This document shows, piece after piece, positions 3 through 5,476 of a stretch of DNA of 6,150 nt; position 1 is the first letter of the stretch, and each line of letters starts with the position of its first letter. The position numbers and the translations under genes were made by a program. The stretch spans positions 1 to 6,150 of the forward strand of contig JAPPMR010000988.1 of NCBI GenBank assembly GCA_028818995.1, read 5' to 3'. This DNA is from Candidatus Poribacteria bacterium (GTDB lineage Bacteria; Poribacteria; WGA-4E; WGA-3G). A model generated the notes under the pieces. The model had not been told where the DNA came from. It saw only the letters and a list, made by a program, of their open reading frames with translations, and did no database searches.

Positions 3-1253
3 TCAAGCCATGCGTTCTCAACTCCTGCGCCCAATCTTTCCCCAACAACATTTGAGAAACACTTGGCCGGTGATCGTGAATTTGAGCAAGCGTTTGTGAC
101 AGCCCCTGCGGTGGTGAACCCTGGTTTAGGTCCTATTTACAACAACGTAACGTGCATCAACTGTCATGCACGTGATGGTCGCGGACGACCGCCAGGAGTT
201 GATGAGAAATTTGTGTCCATGCTCTTTAGACTTAGTCTCCCGAATACAGAAAACGAGGAAGCGGGAAAATCCCCGATACCAGTTCCGGGCTACGGAACCC
301 AGTTAAATAATCGCGCAATCTACGGTACACCCGCAGAAGGGTCAGTCAAAATTGAGTATTCTGAGCAACCGTTAACAACCGAAGACGGAACGCGTGTGCA
401 TCTCCGCTATCCCAATTATACGATTACGGATGCCTATAAATCTTTACCCGATAATGTTGAATTATCACCTCGCGTAGCACCTGTCGTGTTCGGACTCGGT
501 TTATTAGAAGCAATACCCGAAAAAACCATCTTAACTTATGCTGATGAGGCTGATGTTGACGAAGATGGCATCTCTGGCAAACCCAATTATGTATGGGATG
601 TAGTTAAAAAGCGTTACGCGCTTGGTCGTTTCGGATGGAAAGCGAACCAACCTAACCTTCTTCAACAGGTTGCATCCGCATATCATGATGATATGGGAGT
701 GACTACCTCATTGTTCCCTTTAGAAAATTCAACAGGACAAACCCAACTCAAGGAAAACAGTCCGAGGCCCGAAGTGAGCGATGAAATTTTAGATGTGGTA
801 ACGTTCTACGTGCAAACGTTGGCGGTACCTGCCCGTCGAAATGTAGACGATCCACAAGTCATGCATGGTGAACAACTATTTGCACAAGCACAATGTGCAA
901 GCTGTCATATTCCAACGTTAAGAACTGGCGTTTTACCGGGTGTTCCCTCAGTCAGCAATCAAACGATTCATCCGTATACAGATATGTTGTTACACGACAT
1001 GGGACCTGAGTTAGCGGACAATCGTCCTGATTTTCAGGCAAGTGGTAGTGAATGGCGGACACCACCTTTATGGGGTATCGGTTTAGTGATAACAGTCAAC
1101 GGTCATACCAATTTTCTCCACGATGGTAGGGCACGAGATTTAATGGAAGCGATCCTCTGGCACGGAGGGGAATCGGAAAAATCACGACAAGCCGTTTTGG
1201 AAATGTCAAAAACTGAACGTGATGCACTTATAGCGTTCTTAGAGTCATTGTAA
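3..1253 (+). CDS. Di-haem c-type cytochrome / putative peroxidase (DUF1111 di-haem oxidoreductase), 5'-truncated by the window
   Basis: The frame is open from base 3 with no stop, and the residues encoded before the TTG at 63 (SSHAFSTPAPNLSP...) suit this family, so the real start and signal peptide lie upstream. Numbering below takes the leucine codon at 63 as residue 1. There are two haem c attachment motifs, CINCH (31-35) and CASCH (278-282). The C-terminal half has the family's HDMG (311-314), LHDGRA (H353) and WHGGE (H367) blocks. An acidic D-V-D-E-D-G-I-S-G loop (164-172) resembles a calcium-binding loop. This matches the DUF1111 family, related to MauG/CcpA-type di-haem peroxidases; databases often call it 'thiol oxidoreductase', without firm biochemical support that I know of. 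The protein should be periplasmic or anchored. Its relatives often sit beside imelysin-type iron-regulated lipoproteins, and here a TonB receptor and a DUF4856 protein follow. A role in iron or ligand redox chemistry is inference; the family call is firm. Confidence 0.93.
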   Translation, partial: SSHAFSTPAPNLSPTTFEKHLAGDREFEQAFVTAPAVVNPGLGPIYNNVTCINCHARDGRGRPPGVDEKFVSMLFRLSLPNTENEEAGKSPIPVPGYGTQLNNRAIYGTPAEGSVKIEYSEQPLTTEDGTRVHLRYPNYTITDAYKSLPDNVELSPRVAPVVFGLGLLEAIPEKTILTYADEADVDEDGISGKPNYVWDVVKKRYALGRFGWKANQPNLLQQVASAYHDDMGVTTSLFPLENSTGQTQLKENSPRPEVSDEILDVVTFYVQTLAVPARRNVDDPQVMHGEQLFAQAQCASCHIPTLRTGVLPGVPSVSNQTIHPYTDMLLHDMGPELADNRPDFQASGSEWRTPPLWGIGLVITVNGHTNFLHDGRARDLMEAILWHGGESEKSRQAVLEMSKTERDALIAFLESL

Positions 1254-1280: not shown

Positions 1281-1535
1281 ATGAACTTAATGTTTACCAC
1301 ACTTAGAAAATTGTTGTTAGCACTGATTGTCGTTTTCGGTTTAACTTTGTGCGGTTGTGAAAGTGATCCTATTCTTTCACCTCAAGTTGAAGTTGAGGAG
1401 GAAGCTGGTGGAAGTTATGGTAACACTAATCTGTCGGTTAATACAACTGAGAACACACAAAAAACAGTTAAAGATGAGAAAAACAGCAAAATTGTCAGCA
1501 ACCGTAGTAAAATTACGAACCCCAAACGCTTTTAA
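1281..1535 (+). CDS. Small lipoprotein of unknown function (84 aa)
   Basis: I do not recognise this protein. The N-terminus is a typical lipoprotein signal: two basic residues (R9, K10), a hydrophobic stretch (11-23), then a lipobox Leu-Cys-Gly-Cys (23-26), with C26 the likely lipidated residue. Residue +2 is Glu, so the Asp inner-membrane retention signal is absent; by analogy with E. coli it would go to the outer membrane. The mature part is about 58 residues with no obvious fold. An acidic patch (E37, E39-E41) is followed by GG and an Asn/Thr/Lys-rich tail that ends basic (NPKRF), so it looks disordered. It sits 27 bp after the di-haem gene and 22 bp before the receptor, on the same strand with its own Shine-Dalgarno, so it is probably a translated member of the operon. 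It could be an accessory lipoprotein to the receptor or cytochrome, but nothing in the sequence shows which. Confidence 0.75.
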   Translation: MNLMFTTLRKLLLALIVVFGLTLCGCESDPILSPQVEVEEEAGGSYGNTNLSVNTTENTQKTVKDEKNSKIVSNRSKITNPKRF

Positions 1536-1557: not shown

Positions 1558-3669
1558 ATGTTCCAATTTTTAGTCGTAGCTTGTAGAAGAACAGTATCAA
1601 TCTTAATCGTCCTAACGCTTCTCTTTGGCATACCGTACTATTGTCAAGGTTCAACTGAAATTAGTGGCAAAGTGGTTGACAAAGAAACAGGAAATCCCAT
1701 TTTAGGTGCTGTTGTTAAGATAAAATCCAATGGAAATATCTTAGAAGAAGCAACAACTGCGAGAGATGGCAGCTTTCAATTTACGCAGAATGCCCAAAAG
1801 GATCAACAGATCCTGGTAAGTTCAATTGGCTACAATGCCTACAGTAAAATGATTACCTCTGAATCACCGGGCAATTTAGAAATAGCGTTGTCGAGCCAGA
1901 CCTTTGAATTAGCGCCGATAGAAATTATTGGTCAATCGCTGCGTGAACATAAAAAACTGACAGGAACAATGAGCAAGTTAGAACCGGAAATGGTTGACCT
2001 GATAAAGCCTGTTGGCACACAAGAATTGCTTGAATTCATACCGGGTATCAACGGCTATGCGGATGATGGATTTGGCAACTCACGTTTGAGTATTGGAATT
2101 AGAGGTTTAAATCCCCGTCGAAGTGCGCGTGTGCTTATACTTGAAGATGGTGTGCCAATACAGCCCGCTGTCTATATTTATCCGAACGCCTACTACAACC
2201 CGCCTGCTGACCGAATTGATGCTGTTGAGGTGATTAAAAGTAGTGCTGCTGTCCGCTATGGACCGCAAACGATGGGTGGCGTTATTAATTACACGACACG
2301 AAAACCTGATGGAACACGCGGGTTAGGAAATCAGATCACAGTCGGAAACAACGGATACTATGGTGCCTTTTCAGAATTGACAGGTATTGGAAATCCTGAA
2401 AAAGTGTTGTCAGACTTGCAACTTCTATACAAACATGGAGACGGTTTTAGAGAAAATAACACATTTGATCAGGCTAACGGCACTCTTAAAACGCTTTTTC
2501 AACTGAGTGAAGAAAAGACTCTGTATCTCAAACTAAACGGTAATTTTGAAAACTCAAATGCTACTTATACCGGTTTGACAGAATATACATTTAAAACGGA
2601 TCCCAACTTTAACCCTAAAGAAGACGATAATTTTAAGATTATACGAACCTCTCTTGACCTCATCTATACCAACAAAATCTCGGAAAATCTGGTAAGTAAT
2701 ACCACGATGTATACGAGTTTGTTTGACAGGCGGTGGTGGCGTGAGGATGATATCTTCGTGCGTCCTGCCTCTATTGAAACAGGGAATCTGGCGCCAGTGC
2801 CCTATTACCAAACAGGTGATCTCGTCAGAACAGGTAATGGTAAAAGCAACTTCGGTATTCTCCGAACCTTTTACGTAGGTGGAATTGAGCAGAACTATAC
2901 GGTCAAACACGGCATTGGTGGAAATATTGGACGGGCTGAAATCGGTGGCAGAGTGCACTGGGAACGTTTCATTGACGACAAGAAAATCGGTGATGCGCCG
3001 AATGCACGTGATGGGGTTTACTATACGGGAACGCCAGGCTCTAATGAGGATCCTGTGAAAATTGTTGGGCAAAGTCACCACTACGAAACGATGGCGTTAG
3101 CACTTTATGCCAAAGAACAACTTGAATTGCAAGACCTCACGCTTACACTTGGTACGCGGTTTGAAGTATTTAAGCAGGACAGGGTAGACAGACTACGCGG
3201 CTCAGTGTTGGCAGATAAAGTATCTTCAGTGCTATTACCGGGAATTGGTGCGAACTATCAGGTCGGGAATTTCAACATTTTCGGCAGCATTCATAGAGGG
3301 TATACAGCACCCTCCAGCGGTACACTAAAAGTTACTAACTTCGGGCAAAATGTTGATGCTGGTGGACTTGACCTCAAACCTGAAAAAAGTTGGAACATGG
3401 AACTGGGATTCAGATCATGGATGCGAGGCGTTACAATAGAAACTGCCGGATTTTTCATTACGGTCGAAGATTTGGTTGCGGCTGGACGTGGTACTGCATT
3501 CAAGAATTTAGGAAAGGTTAATTTGTCAGGACTTGAAATGGCAATGAGACTTGACATATCAGAACTCGTGTCAATACTACCTGATCTCAATGCTTCTTAT
3601 ACATCCTTCAAACAGAAATCGTTGATGGTATTGTCAAGTCTGCGACTATTGCCGGTAATGTTGATGTAG
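1558..3669 (+). CDS. TonB-dependent outer-membrane receptor, FecA-like, N-terminal and most of barrel (frameshifted near 3612)
   Basis: This is an outer-membrane active transporter, probably for a ferric chelate. A signal peptide occupies about residues 1-31 (hydrophobic 13-26). A carboxypeptidase-regulatory-like domain follows at about 35-112, beginning ISGKVVDKETG. APIEIIGQ (about 119-126) is a possible TonB box. The plug covers about 130-250, with the FecA-type block RYGPQTMGGVINYTTRKP (233-250). Beta-barrel sequence then runs on to about residue 685. After residue 684 (Lys, codon 3610-3612) this frame gives about 19 unrelated residues and a TAG at 3667-3669. Sensible barrel sequence continues at once in another frame to 4049, so the intended protein is about 830 aa, a normal receptor length. 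The simplest explanation is one A missing from the AAA run at 3610-3612, either a real mutation or a sequencing or assembly error. The substrate is not provable from sequence; iron is inferred from the FecA resemblance and the neighbours. It follows the small lipoprotein gene by 22 bp and is likely in the same operon. Confidence 0.92.
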   Translation: MFQFLVVACRRTVSILIVLTLLFGIPYYCQGSTEISGKVVDKETGNPILGAVVKIKSNGNILEEATTARDGSFQFTQNAQKDQQILVSSIGYNAYSKMITSESPGNLEIALSSQTFELAPIEIIGQSLREHKKLTGTMSKLEPEMVDLIKPVGTQELLEFIPGINGYADDGFGNSRLSIGIRGLNPRRSARVLILEDGVPIQPAVYIYPNAYYNPPADRIDAVEVIKSSAAVRYGPQTMGGVINYTTRKPDGTRGLGNQITVGNNGYYGAFSELTGIGNPEKVLSDLQLLYKHGDGFRENNTFDQANGTLKTLFQLSEEKTLYLKLNGNFENSNATYTGLTEYTFKTDPNFNPKEDDNFKIIRTSLDLIYTNKISENLVSNTTMYTSLFDRRWWREDDIFVRPASIETGNLAPVPYYQTGDLVRTGNGKSNFGILRTFYVGGIEQNYTVKHGIGGNIGRAEIGGRVHWERFIDDKKIGDAPNARDGVYYTGTPGSNEDPVKIVGQSHHYETMALALYAKEQLELQDLTLTLGTRFEVFKQDRVDRLRGSVLADKVSSVLLPGIGANYQVGNFNIFGSIHRGYTAPSSGTLKVTNFGQNVDAGGLDLKPEKSWNMELGFRSWMRGVTIETAGFFITVEDLVAAGRGTAFKNLGKVNLSGLEMAMRLDISELVSILPDLNASYTSFKQKSLMVLSSLRLLPVMLM

Positions 3670-4049
3670 AGCTAAACGGCAATGAACTGCCTTACGCCCC
3701 GCAGCATACTTTCACTGTAGGATTGGCAAAACAACTTGGTGACGTTATTCGTGTGCGTGCCGATATGCGGTTTGTGGACGAAGTTTTCACCGATTTTGAA
3801 AACATTCAGCAAACTAAAAATCGTGGCGATACCGGTCCCATTCCAAACTATGCGATTGTCAATGCAAGTATAGATTACAAATTAACTACACAGTGGCAGC
3901 TATTTTTCACTGCCAAAAACATTTTCGATAAAGTATATATCGGGTCGCGTTTGCATTCAAATGCAGGGCAACCTGAAGCCAATTTAAGCTCGGGCATCCT
4001 AATCGGTCCGAGACGACAGATACTTTTTGGTATCAAGCAAGGTTTATAG
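3612..4049 (+). CDS. C-terminal barrel segment of the same TonB-dependent receptor, in the shifted frame
   Basis: This stretch is the continuation of the receptor, not a separate gene. Read from 3612 it gives TEIVDGIVKSATIAGNVDV and onward, joining smoothly to ...LNASYTSFK in the other frame. It then carries typical last-strand features of FecA-like receptors: LPYAPQHTFTVGL, VNASIDYKL, FFTAKNIFDKVYIGSR, and a closing GPRRQILFGIKQGL. About 145 residues are intact to the TAG at 4047-4049. No convincing start codon or ribosome binding site would allow independent translation; the TTG at 3723 lies in the middle of barrel sequence. The previous stop in this frame is at 3582-3584, so the lesion must lie between about 3585 and 3669, best placed at the AAA at 3610-3612. 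The clean preservation downstream favours a recent mutation or a base-calling error over an old pseudogene. Confidence 0.88.
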   Translation, partial: TEIVDGIVKSATIAGNVDVELNGNELPYAPQHTFTVGLAKQLGDVIRVRADMRFVDEVFTDFENIQQTKNRGDTGPIPNYAIVNASIDYKLTTQWQLFFTAKNIFDKVYIGSRLHSNAGQPEANLSSGILIGPRRQILFGIKQGL

Positions 4050-4062
4050 TTCTGGTGTAAGG

Positions 4063-4094
4063 TGAAGAGAGATGTTTTAAAGCTGCTCTCTTCA
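4063..4094 (+). terminator. Hairpin after the receptor gene, possible terminator
   Basis: TGAAGAGAG (4063-4071) and CTCTCTTCA (4086-4094) form a perfect 9-bp stem around a 14-nt loop, starting 13 nt after the receptor stop. The position suits a transcription end for the upstream operon. The following bases (AAAGTTTCTATT) are only a weak U-tract, so it may instead be an mRNA 3'-end stabiliser or a leaky terminator. Confidence 0.45.
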
Positions 4095-4119
4095 AAAGTT
4101 TCTATTAAAAACTAATAAT
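4091..4119 (+). promoter_or_regulatory. Possible sigma70-type promoter for the DUF4856 gene
   Basis: TTCAAA (4091-4096) could serve as a -35 box and TAATAAT (4113-4119) as an AT-rich -10, 16 bp apart. Transcription would then begin near 4125, right at the Fur-box-like palindrome, a common arrangement for Fur repression. The matches are loose and the -35 overlaps the preceding hairpin arm, so this is tentative. Confidence 0.3.
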
Positions 4120-4121
4120 TC

Positions 4122-4150
4122 ATAAAGATAATGAGACTCGTTATCTTTAT
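4122..4150 (+). promoter_or_regulatory. Fur box-like operator inside a 29-bp palindrome
   Basis: Bases 4127-4145 read GATAATGAGACTCGTTATC. Aligned without gaps to the classical 19-bp Fur box GATAATGATAATCATTATC this matches 16 of 19 positions, including the first eight and last five. The symmetry continues outward: 4122-4150 is palindromic about A4136 with a single mismatched pair (4132/4140). It ends 15 bp before the ATG at 4166, so bound Fur-Fe would block the promoter or early elongation. Transcribed, it could also form a hairpin followed by TTTT, so an additional terminator role cannot be excluded. An operator fits better given the iron-related genes on both sides. Confidence 0.7.
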
Positions 4151-4153
4151 TTT

Positions 4154-4160
4154 AAAGGAG
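4154..4160 (+). promoter_or_regulatory. Strong ribosome binding site for the DUF4856 gene
   Basis: AAAGGAG lies 5 nt before the ATG at 4166. It is the best Shine-Dalgarno in the window and fixes the start. Such a strong site is unusual for Bacteroidota, which bears on the organism guess. Confidence 0.8.
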
Positions 4161-4165
4161 AAAAC

Positions 4166-5476
4166 ATGAATTTCTTGACGATAAAATATCAATGGTTAGC
4201 TGCGTTGCTAATTGTTGTTAGTCTATTTCTAACCGCTTGTGGAACCGATGATGACGAACTTGACCCTACAGATGAAGCCAAAATCGATGTGCCACAAGCG
4301 TATGTATTTGATAGTCGCTTTGAAGAAGGCAAAAGTAGTGTTTCTTACTCAGGGCAGGTTGTACGCAATCTGCTGTTGCAGGACTTAAAGGCGACCACCG
4401 ACAGCGTAGGAAAAGACGGTGCCAAGTCTGTTACAGTGCACCACCAGCTCCAATTCTATGCTTATGATGATGCACTAAACCTGAAAACGCTGACGACTAC
4501 AGGATCAATATCTGCACTTGAAAGTCATTATTCCGCGCTTTCAACTGGGAAAAATCTTGTTGGTAAGATTTCAGGCGATCCAGTCATCGGTTACAATCGC
4601 ACTGCAGATGATTTAGTGCGGGAATGGTTCAAACAAATTGCGGATAATTCGCAGGATTCTGATAAACTCGGCACGGCAATGGCTTACACTAACGATGACG
4701 GTGTTGACATGTCGCAGATGATTAACAAGGTGCTTATCGGTGCAGTCCCTTATTATCAAGCGACAGGTGTTTATCTCAACGGTCTGCTTGAACGTGATAA
4801 TAGTGAAGCGAGAGATGGAGAGGATCCGTATACTGCGATGGAGCATGCGTGGGATGAGGCTTTCGGTTATTTCGGTGCTGCTCGTGATTATGCGCGTTAC
4901 ACCGACGATCAACTTGCTGGATCGGTTGATGATTTTACATTCGATTCTAATGGTGATGGCAGTATTGACTTCAAATCGGAATACAACTTCGGGCTTTCTA
5001 GAAATGCAGCAAAACGCGATAAGGGAGGGACAGGCGTGGATTTCACGAAGGATATTTTTGATGCTTTCCTTGCTGGACGCACCGCTATTACCAATCAAGG
5101 TTCGGTTGAGGAAATCAGCGCGCACCGCCAAGCCGCTGCGGAAGGGATGGAAAAGGTGATCGCAGCGACAGTCGTTCACTACATCAACGATACGCTTAGC
5201 GATATGTCTGAGTTAGGTACAGCCGACGAAAATCGTGCCAATTTAAATAAACATTGGGCGGAGATGAAAGGTTATACTGTCGCTTTGCAGTACAATCCTT
5301 TCAAGTTGATTAGCGATGGACAGCTTCGGGAATTGCATGGTATTATGGGGGAAGCACCCCAATATGATGAACCGGGCAGTAGTGAATATGAAAAACAAGT
5401 TTCCTATTACGAACGCGCTAAAGTTGTCCTACAGGCTGCTTATGGATTCTCCAATGCGAACATGGAGAACTGGTAG
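4166..5476 (+). CDS. DUF4856 domain lipoprotein, imelysin-related, probably iron-regulated
   Basis: This 436-residue protein starts with a lipoprotein signal: hydrophobic residues 11-22 and lipobox Leu-Thr-Ala-Cys (22-25), with C25 lipidated. Gly at +2 suggests outer-membrane sorting. An acidic linker (GTDDDELDPTDE) follows. The body matches DUF4856 as I know it: VSYSGQVVRN near 58, the central block YTAMEHAWDEAFGYFG (222-237), FLAGRTAI and VIAATVVHYIN in the C-terminal half, and HWAEMKGYTVALQYNPF near the end. The family is helical and related in context to imelysins (EfeO/IrpA-type iron-regulated proteins), but I do not see the classical imelysin GxHxxE motif. H227 and E231 in HAWDE could be a substitute metal site. 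D260-N262-D264-G265 with I267 and D268 looks like an EF-hand/dockerin-type calcium loop. A Fur-box-like palindrome sits just upstream, so expression under iron starvation is likely. A role in binding or passing iron in the periplasm is inference; the family call is firm. Confidence 0.88.
   Translation: MNFLTIKYQWLAALLIVVSLFLTACGTDDDELDPTDEAKIDVPQAYVFDSRFEEGKSSVSYSGQVVRNLLLQDLKATTDSVGKDGAKSVTVHHQLQFYAYDDALNLKTLTTTGSISALESHYSALSTGKNLVGKISGDPVIGYNRTADDLVREWFKQIADNSQDSDKLGTAMAYTNDDGVDMSQMINKVLIGAVPYYQATGVYLNGLLERDNSEARDGEDPYTAMEHAWDEAFGYFGAARDYARYTDDQLAGSVDDFTFDSNGDGSIDFKSEYNFGLSRNAAKRDKGGTGVDFTKDIFDAFLAGRTAITNQGSVEEISAHRQAAAEGMEKVIAATVVHYINDTLSDMSELGTADENRANLNKHWAEMKGYTVALQYNPFKLISDGQLRELHGIMGEAPQYDEPGSSEYEKQVSYYERAKVVLQAAYGFSNANMENW

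Follow-up and report, generated by a model that had tools for sequence, protein, structure and literature searches.

The site at 4127-4145 of the window (the whole 6,150-nucleotide stretch of Candidatus Poribacteria DNA analysed here) is very probably a real Fur-type operator, ordinary in kind, at which binding and repression are predicted, and the gene that follows it encodes a lipoprotein of the DUF4856 family, which, judged from sequence, most likely aids bacterial iron acquisition. The explanation headed by this predicted operator, taken as it is set out below, is one in which we have considerable confidence. Direct support is provided by the sequence match, its conservation, the Fur genes of related genomes, the regulon and the gene linkage. 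The features of the window are collected in Table 1.

Table 1. Features located in the window around the predicted operator
Feature	Position	Strand	Basis or remark
Di-haem oxidoreductase (DHOR) gene, 5' end beyond the window	3-1253	+	PF06537, E 1.2e-111
Lipoprotein-like gene, 84 aa, same cluster	1281-1535	+	ORF; without Pfam match
TonB-dependent receptor gene, upstream of the site	1558-4049	+	ORF and profile; frame split near 3606-3612
Hairpin just 3' of the receptor gene, no U tract	4063-4094	+	RNA fold
Promoter-like match TTAAAA-16-GATAAT	4105-4132	+	Weak; GATAAT forms the left end of the box
29-bp dyad enclosing the core	4122-4150	.	13/14 pairs; outer part varies in relatives
Predicted Fur-type operator, 19-bp core GATAATGAGACTCGTTATC	4127-4145	.	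Match to classical box and copies in relatives
AAGGAG, likely ribosome-binding site of the DUF4856 gene	4155-4160	+	Inferred from sequence
DUF4856 lipoprotein gene, presumed target of the site	4166-5476	+	PF16148, E 6e-23
Membrane glycosyltransferase-like gene, start only	5584-	+	PMT_2, 21.1 bits, below cut-off

The 19-bp core GATAATGAGACTCGTTATC was found to agree with the classical Fur box GATAATGATAATCATTATC (also given in the available part of PMC5609570) at 16 of 19 positions when read on the + strand; the - strand gives 15 of 19. Scored on one strand, 400 first-order Markov shuffles of the window never reached 16, and a maximum of 15 came up in 2 of them. The initial annotation had described a 16/19 Fur box at this place, and both its coordinates and its sequence proved exact. 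It had placed all three differences in the central third; the mismatches lie at box positions 9, 11 and 14, which is correct for two of them but not for position 14, just outside. The enclosing dyad, centred on 4136, was likewise as described, with a single unpaired position (4132/4140), and odd-centred dyads with at least 13 of 14 pairs occurred in 0 of 200 shuffles. A spacing of 15 bp to the start codon, as originally given, holds for this 29-bp dyad, whereas the 19-bp box ends 20 bp before the ATG. As in classical systems, a 19-bp dyad is found shortly upstream of iron genes. Two promoter-like sites were detected in the region against 0.7 expected, and the tabulated match is suggestive only.

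The product of the downstream gene scored 81.8 bits against PF16148, above the curated cut-off of 22.3, and carries a lipobox-type cysteine (Cys25), which confirms its description as a DUF4856 lipoprotein. The upstream gene had been called a FecA-like receptor; it does encode a TonB-dependent receptor, whose top NCBIfam match, the FecA-like NF041676, stays far under the cut-off (110.9 bits against 1100). The receptor is read in two frames, the 846-aa protein of the related locus L001 matching frame 1 to about residue 701 and frame 3 beyond, and the split may be either a sequencing error or a broken gene.

Twenty-nine DUF4856 loci were compared, 20 of them from Candidatus Poribacteria, and those nearest to the window were MAGs of this phylum, with L001 at 93% protein identity. 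With L002 left out, which came without upstream sequence, a box within three mismatches of the Poribacteria consensus GATAATGAGWCTCATTATC was found ahead of the DUF4856 gene in 15 of the remaining 19 loci of this phylum, starting 34-61 bp ahead of the query-match start. The consensus differs from the classical box in its middle, which reads GAG-W-CTC, and individual boxes of relatives reach 17/19 against the classical sequence. No such box was found ahead of DUF4856 in the other four loci (L014-L017); in genome G015 it sits ahead of small-lipoprotein and TonB genes instead, and in G013 a 3-mismatch box precedes an outer-membrane-protein gene. In the 16 sequences, the window plus 15 loci, pairwise identity averaged 0.885 in the box, a figure inflated by the picking of rows by best match and their alignment on the box, against 0.29-0.42 in the 60-bp flanks, and 15 of 19 columns were uniform in 14 or more of the 16 rows. 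Arms paired in 0.50-0.81 of rows over the five positions next to the 19-mer and in 0.25-0.62 over the following five; because pairing outside the 19-mer falls off in this way, the long dyad of the window is partly accidental. Conservation upstream of orthologues, which the initial annotation had proposed as a check on the dyad, is therefore confined to the 19-bp core and does not extend to the longer palindrome. None of nine loci from other phyla showed such a box ahead of DUF4856, the stretch scanned in four of these (L022, L023, L024 and L028) not being the true upstream region (an N run, or a match start inside the protein); L028's genome was rescanned as L099 in the Bacteroidota set described below.

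The gene order at L001 is DUF5916, an outer-membrane beta-barrel-like protein, imelysin, DHOR, the 84-aa lipoprotein, the TonB receptor and DUF4856, followed by a protein without Pfam match and then an FAD-type oxidoreductase. In 16 of 20 Poribacteria genomes (positions judged by eye) DUF4856 shares a contig with an imelysin gene no more than about 10 kb away; in G004 and G020 the two are on different contigs, and no imelysin was found in the draft genomes G003 and G005. Seven DUF4856 proteins from Gemmatimonadota, Latescibacterota and Verrucomicrobiales MAGs (L018, L019, L021, L022, L023, L024 and L026) are 65-72% identical to that of the window, for which transfer between marine or sponge-associated lineages, or mis-binning of contigs, could account.

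A FUR-family gene (PF01475) was present in all 20 related Poribacteria genomes examined, a set of relatives to which the window's own genome does not belong, and the Fur gene that the initial annotation had asked to confirm is thereby present in relatives. It is single copy in 17 of these genomes and has 2-3 paralogues in G013, G014 and G016. Among solved structures the G001 protein lies nearest to Fur (2xig, 6d57, 4ets), before PerR and Zur; it falls under every NCBIfam cut-off, so that these models leave the Fur/PerR/Zur subtype unsettled. PF01475 was not found in G021 and G022 (Gemmatimonadota) or G024 (Latescibacterota), draft MAGs of unstated completeness in which DUF4856 is also without the box; G023 is without the box too and does have a FUR match. 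The FUR-family genes themselves are not preceded by the box (25 entries, of which that of L034 is in the wrong frame; best 6 mismatches).

At up to three mismatches, the consensus was found in whole Poribacteria genomes 4-14 times each in G001-G019 and once in G020, and the reversed pattern 0-3 times; with the limit lowered to two mismatches, the reversed pattern had no match in 9 of 9 genomes searched. A tally of distinct sites with at most two mismatches, the window's own included, came to 97, of which 64 are at iron-related genes; as the tally was drawn from loci around boxes or DUF4856 genes of related Poribacteria, this is not a genome-wide fraction. The 64 comprise 22 sites at the outer-membrane-protein gene heading the imelysin operon, 16 at heme-degrading-monooxygenase-like genes (HmoB/HmuQ/IsdG-type, under the NCBIfam cut-offs), 15 at DUF4856, 6 at small-lipoprotein/TonB genes, 4 at multicopper oxidase genes and 1 at the gene for an Fe(III)-binding protein, the best solved relative of which is 7w3w (E 3.9e-107). 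Behind the multicopper oxidase gene of G001 come an Fe(III)-type binding-protein gene and an ABC-permease gene. Of the remaining sites, 6 lie at genes for DUF368, a nucleoside hydrolase or DUF5916, and 27 are next to no labelled gene. From sequence, the box set is read as a probable iron regulon, and both the excess over the reversed pattern and the placement of sites agree with the clustering at iron genes that the initial annotation had looked for.

DUF4856 was also found in 24 of 148 Bacteroidota genomes drawn and in 0 of 14 control genomes; the 24 together with G026 make up the Bacteroidota set of 25. In 23 of the 25, DUF4856 lies directly upstream of an imelysin gene on the same strand, and in the five loci viewed these two genes are followed by a third, membrane-protein-like one and then by a TonB-type receptor gene. 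The third gene, for which NCBIfam gave no match, is presumably gamma-carboxylase/HTTM-like. A second dyad, TTTAGAnTnnnTCTAAA, was found within one mismatch upstream of DUF4856 in 19 of 25 genomes and in 0.4% of shuffles, a comparison that is not independent because the pattern was picked after the sequences had been viewed; by eye, it often occurs twice per upstream region. A longer form, at one mismatch, gave 1-11 matches per genome on both strands of 21 Bacteroidota genomes against 0-5 for the reversed control, which equalled or exceeded the pattern in G082 and G113, and with so moderate an excess the pattern is less specific genome-wide than the Poribacteria box. Of the 25 genomes, 24 have Fur. 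Where it was not found (G138), the dyad and the adjacent imelysin are also missing; G157 has Fur, yet neither dyad nor adjacent imelysin.

The TTTAGAnTnnnTCTAAA dyad fits the published Fur box of Riemerella anatipestifer, ATTTAGAATTATTCTAAAT (PMC5609570), and according to the available part of that paper purified Riemerella Fur shifted four other promoters by EMSA. The same source lists a TonB receptor (RAYM_09779), a gamma-carboxylase (RAYM_09784), an imelysin (RAYM_09789) and a hypothetical protein (RAYM_09794), all raised 2.1-3.1-fold in low iron and listed as Fur-regulated (its Table 4). The gene order is that of the Bacteroidota DUF4856 operons, and the box sequence is unlike that of Poribacteria. 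From gene order only, RAYM_09794 should be DUF4856; its iron response having been published for a "hypothetical protein", the iron link is in part already on record, though not under the family name. In the fur mutant its 3.07-fold low-iron rise persists, with a rise of only 1.36-fold in the presence of iron, and the Fur-box table, in the available text of PMC5609570, includes none of the four genes; these two observations argue against a pure Fur account.

Operons that combine imelysin and di-haem oxidoreductase, PA4370-PA4373 of Pseudomonas and VC1264-VC1266 of Vibrio, are described as under Fur in the part of PMC3143127 available, and VC1264-VC1266 also appear in iron- or Fur-related tables (PMC7600106 and PMC5816637, both seen in part). 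The partner proteins in these operons are described there as imelysin-like and not as DUF4856 (PMC3143127, same part). DUF4856 and imelysin show no detectable sequence similarity except in the signal peptide: an assignment of DUF4856 as imelysin by sequence was rejected, hhalign against 7 imelysins aligning 25 columns of signal peptide. PF09375 was not matched by the window protein at E 1 and was not among the best 25 of 34 families for 87 DUF4856 members.

In an alignment of 87 DUF4856 proteins, from which L016 was excluded because its reading held stops at the coordinates used, the lipobox-type Cys25 is kept in 98% of the relatives, and the segment TxMEHxxDExxGY is near-invariant, with E226, H227, D230 and E231 at 100% and M225 at 97%. 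The Bacteroidota proteins aligned are 20-32% identical to that of the window. The AF2 model of the window protein is all-helical (mean pLDDT 81, pTM 0.82; weak stretches 24-34, 103-112, 114-126 and 254-274); a fold search with it gave no informative match and no imelysin among the matches listed, which leaves room for an imelysin fold. NF038033, the profile of a FEA1-related lipoprotein, matched 37 of the 87 proteins at E up to 0.1 (best 6.8e-8), although the window protein was not matched at E 0.1. When the 148 Bacteroidota genomes were searched with NF038033, 11 of 12 matches fell on DUF4856 genes, and 13 of the 24 Bacteroidota DUF4856 genomes gave no match at E 0.001. Against the 250-bit cut-off all scores fell far short, the best in the genome search being 28.3 bits; the resemblance, which concerns some DUF4856 proteins, is weak but specific.

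Algal FEA1 is described as a periplasmic, iron-deficiency-induced protein and a proposed iron concentrator (PMC8098128, in part), and an algal Fea1-domain protein was found iron-loaded (PMC4855317, in part). Because of the NF038033 likeness and these algal data, DUF4856 may be an iron-binding or iron-handing helper lipoprotein, for which the chances appear to us about evenly balanced. The likeness to algal FEA1 goes via the NF038033 profile. Rather doubtful, and offered tentatively, is the fuller picture in which DUF4856 would be a Fur-controlled bacterial counterpart of FEA1, an all-helical lipoprotein of the surface or periplasm that binds iron through the invariant MEHxxDE segment and feeds a TonB receptor and imelysin, with iron control in Poribacteria and Bacteroidota exerted through two different box sequences.

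The palindrome could alternatively be the hairpin of an intrinsic terminator or attenuator of the receptor transcript, as its folding as + strand RNA (-11.4 kcal/mol, z -2.94) and the ATTTT that comes after it might suggest. However, its stem is A+T-rich, no site with a stem of at least three G-C pairs and a T-rich tail was found in 3950-4250, the outer arms lose their pairing in relatives as described above, and the 19-mer is also found in numerous other promoters, as well as in tandem arrays remote from gene ends. The hairpin tabulated just behind the receptor gene lies nearer its stop and is a possible 3' end of the receptor transcript, likelier than the dyad. A terminator is accordingly very improbable, and the refuting case named by the initial annotation, a palindrome acting only in this way, went unsupported. 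Chance resemblance, which draws on nothing more than the freedom in motif choice and the picking of identity rows by best match, is scarcely credible against the shuffle tests, the recurrence of the box at the same place in relatives and its genome-wide excess over the reversed pattern.

More weight attaches to the regulator that would use the dyad, which might be an operator for a DtxR-family protein or for a FUR paralogue responding to another metal or to peroxide. A DtxR-family protein (PF02742) was found in 15 of 20 Poribacteria genomes, the NCBIfam cut-offs do not resolve Fur subtypes, and three genomes have the FUR paralogues noted above. Against this, four genomes that gave no DtxR-family match (G003, G007, G008 and G018) have the DUF4856 box, most of the genomes have a single FUR-family protein with best solved relatives named Fur, the sequence fits a Fur box, and the neighbours are iron genes. 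We consider another metal regulator improbable and retain the Fur-type operator as the preferred reading.

With ample cytosolic iron, the FUR-family protein would bind the 19-bp dyad, which ends 20 bp short of the DUF4856 ATG and probably overlaps the promoter, and would repress the gene. Under iron starvation DUF4856 would be released along with the neighbouring outer-membrane-protein, imelysin, DHOR and TonB-receptor genes, which have boxes of their own in relatives, and the lipoprotein, at the outer membrane or in the periplasm, would most likely serve as an iron-binding or iron-handing helper of uptake. Fur binding, repression, the overlap with the promoter and the biochemical role of DUF4856 are what we infer in this scheme. 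The kind of element and the pathway were known already; new are the family assignment, its support from two phyla and the Poribacteria regulon. The name DUF4856 was absent from the main texts of the literature searched, and no main text was found that names both Poribacteria and the ferric uptake regulator. A domain-of-unknown-function family thereby gains a testable role in iron acquisition, supported by two phyla, two operator sequences and a recurring imelysin/TonB neighbourhood, and a Fur regulon is outlined for the uncultured, sponge-associated Poribacteria. The suggestion that DUF4856 is iron-controlled and that its annotation could move towards iron homeostasis is thus upheld, at the level of prediction, by the box, the regulon and the two-phylum linkage.

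Several further observations were made on the box-bearing loci. Tandem arrays of 2-4 boxes, repeated every 31-32 bp (about three helical turns), are found at L078:5914-6028, L081:5827-5941 and L084:5977-6058, with pairs in L088, L090, L179 and L182. Several arrays lie close to DUF368 or nucleoside-hydrolase genes, in broad stretches poor in genes and without labelled target, and Rfam gave no match in L078, L081, L084, L086, L179, L182 or L186; the arrays might serve cooperative Fur binding or belong to an unrecognised transcript. At L079:4872-5924, a box precedes the gene for a 351-aa multicopper oxidase at the head of an Fe(III)-binding-protein/permease cluster. Its best solved relatives are animal ceruloplasmin (4enz, E 6.9e-180 over three repeats) and coagulation factor V/VIII, with bacterial laccases ranking lower, and it is predicted to be a ceruloplasmin-like ferroxidase of a sponge symbiont. 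In G015 (C35:8817-9773, within L097), the two halves of imelysin are swapped in one open frame, profile positions 119-287 preceding 1-113, which resembles the circularly permuted imelysin of Bacteroides ovatus described in the available part of PMC3143127.
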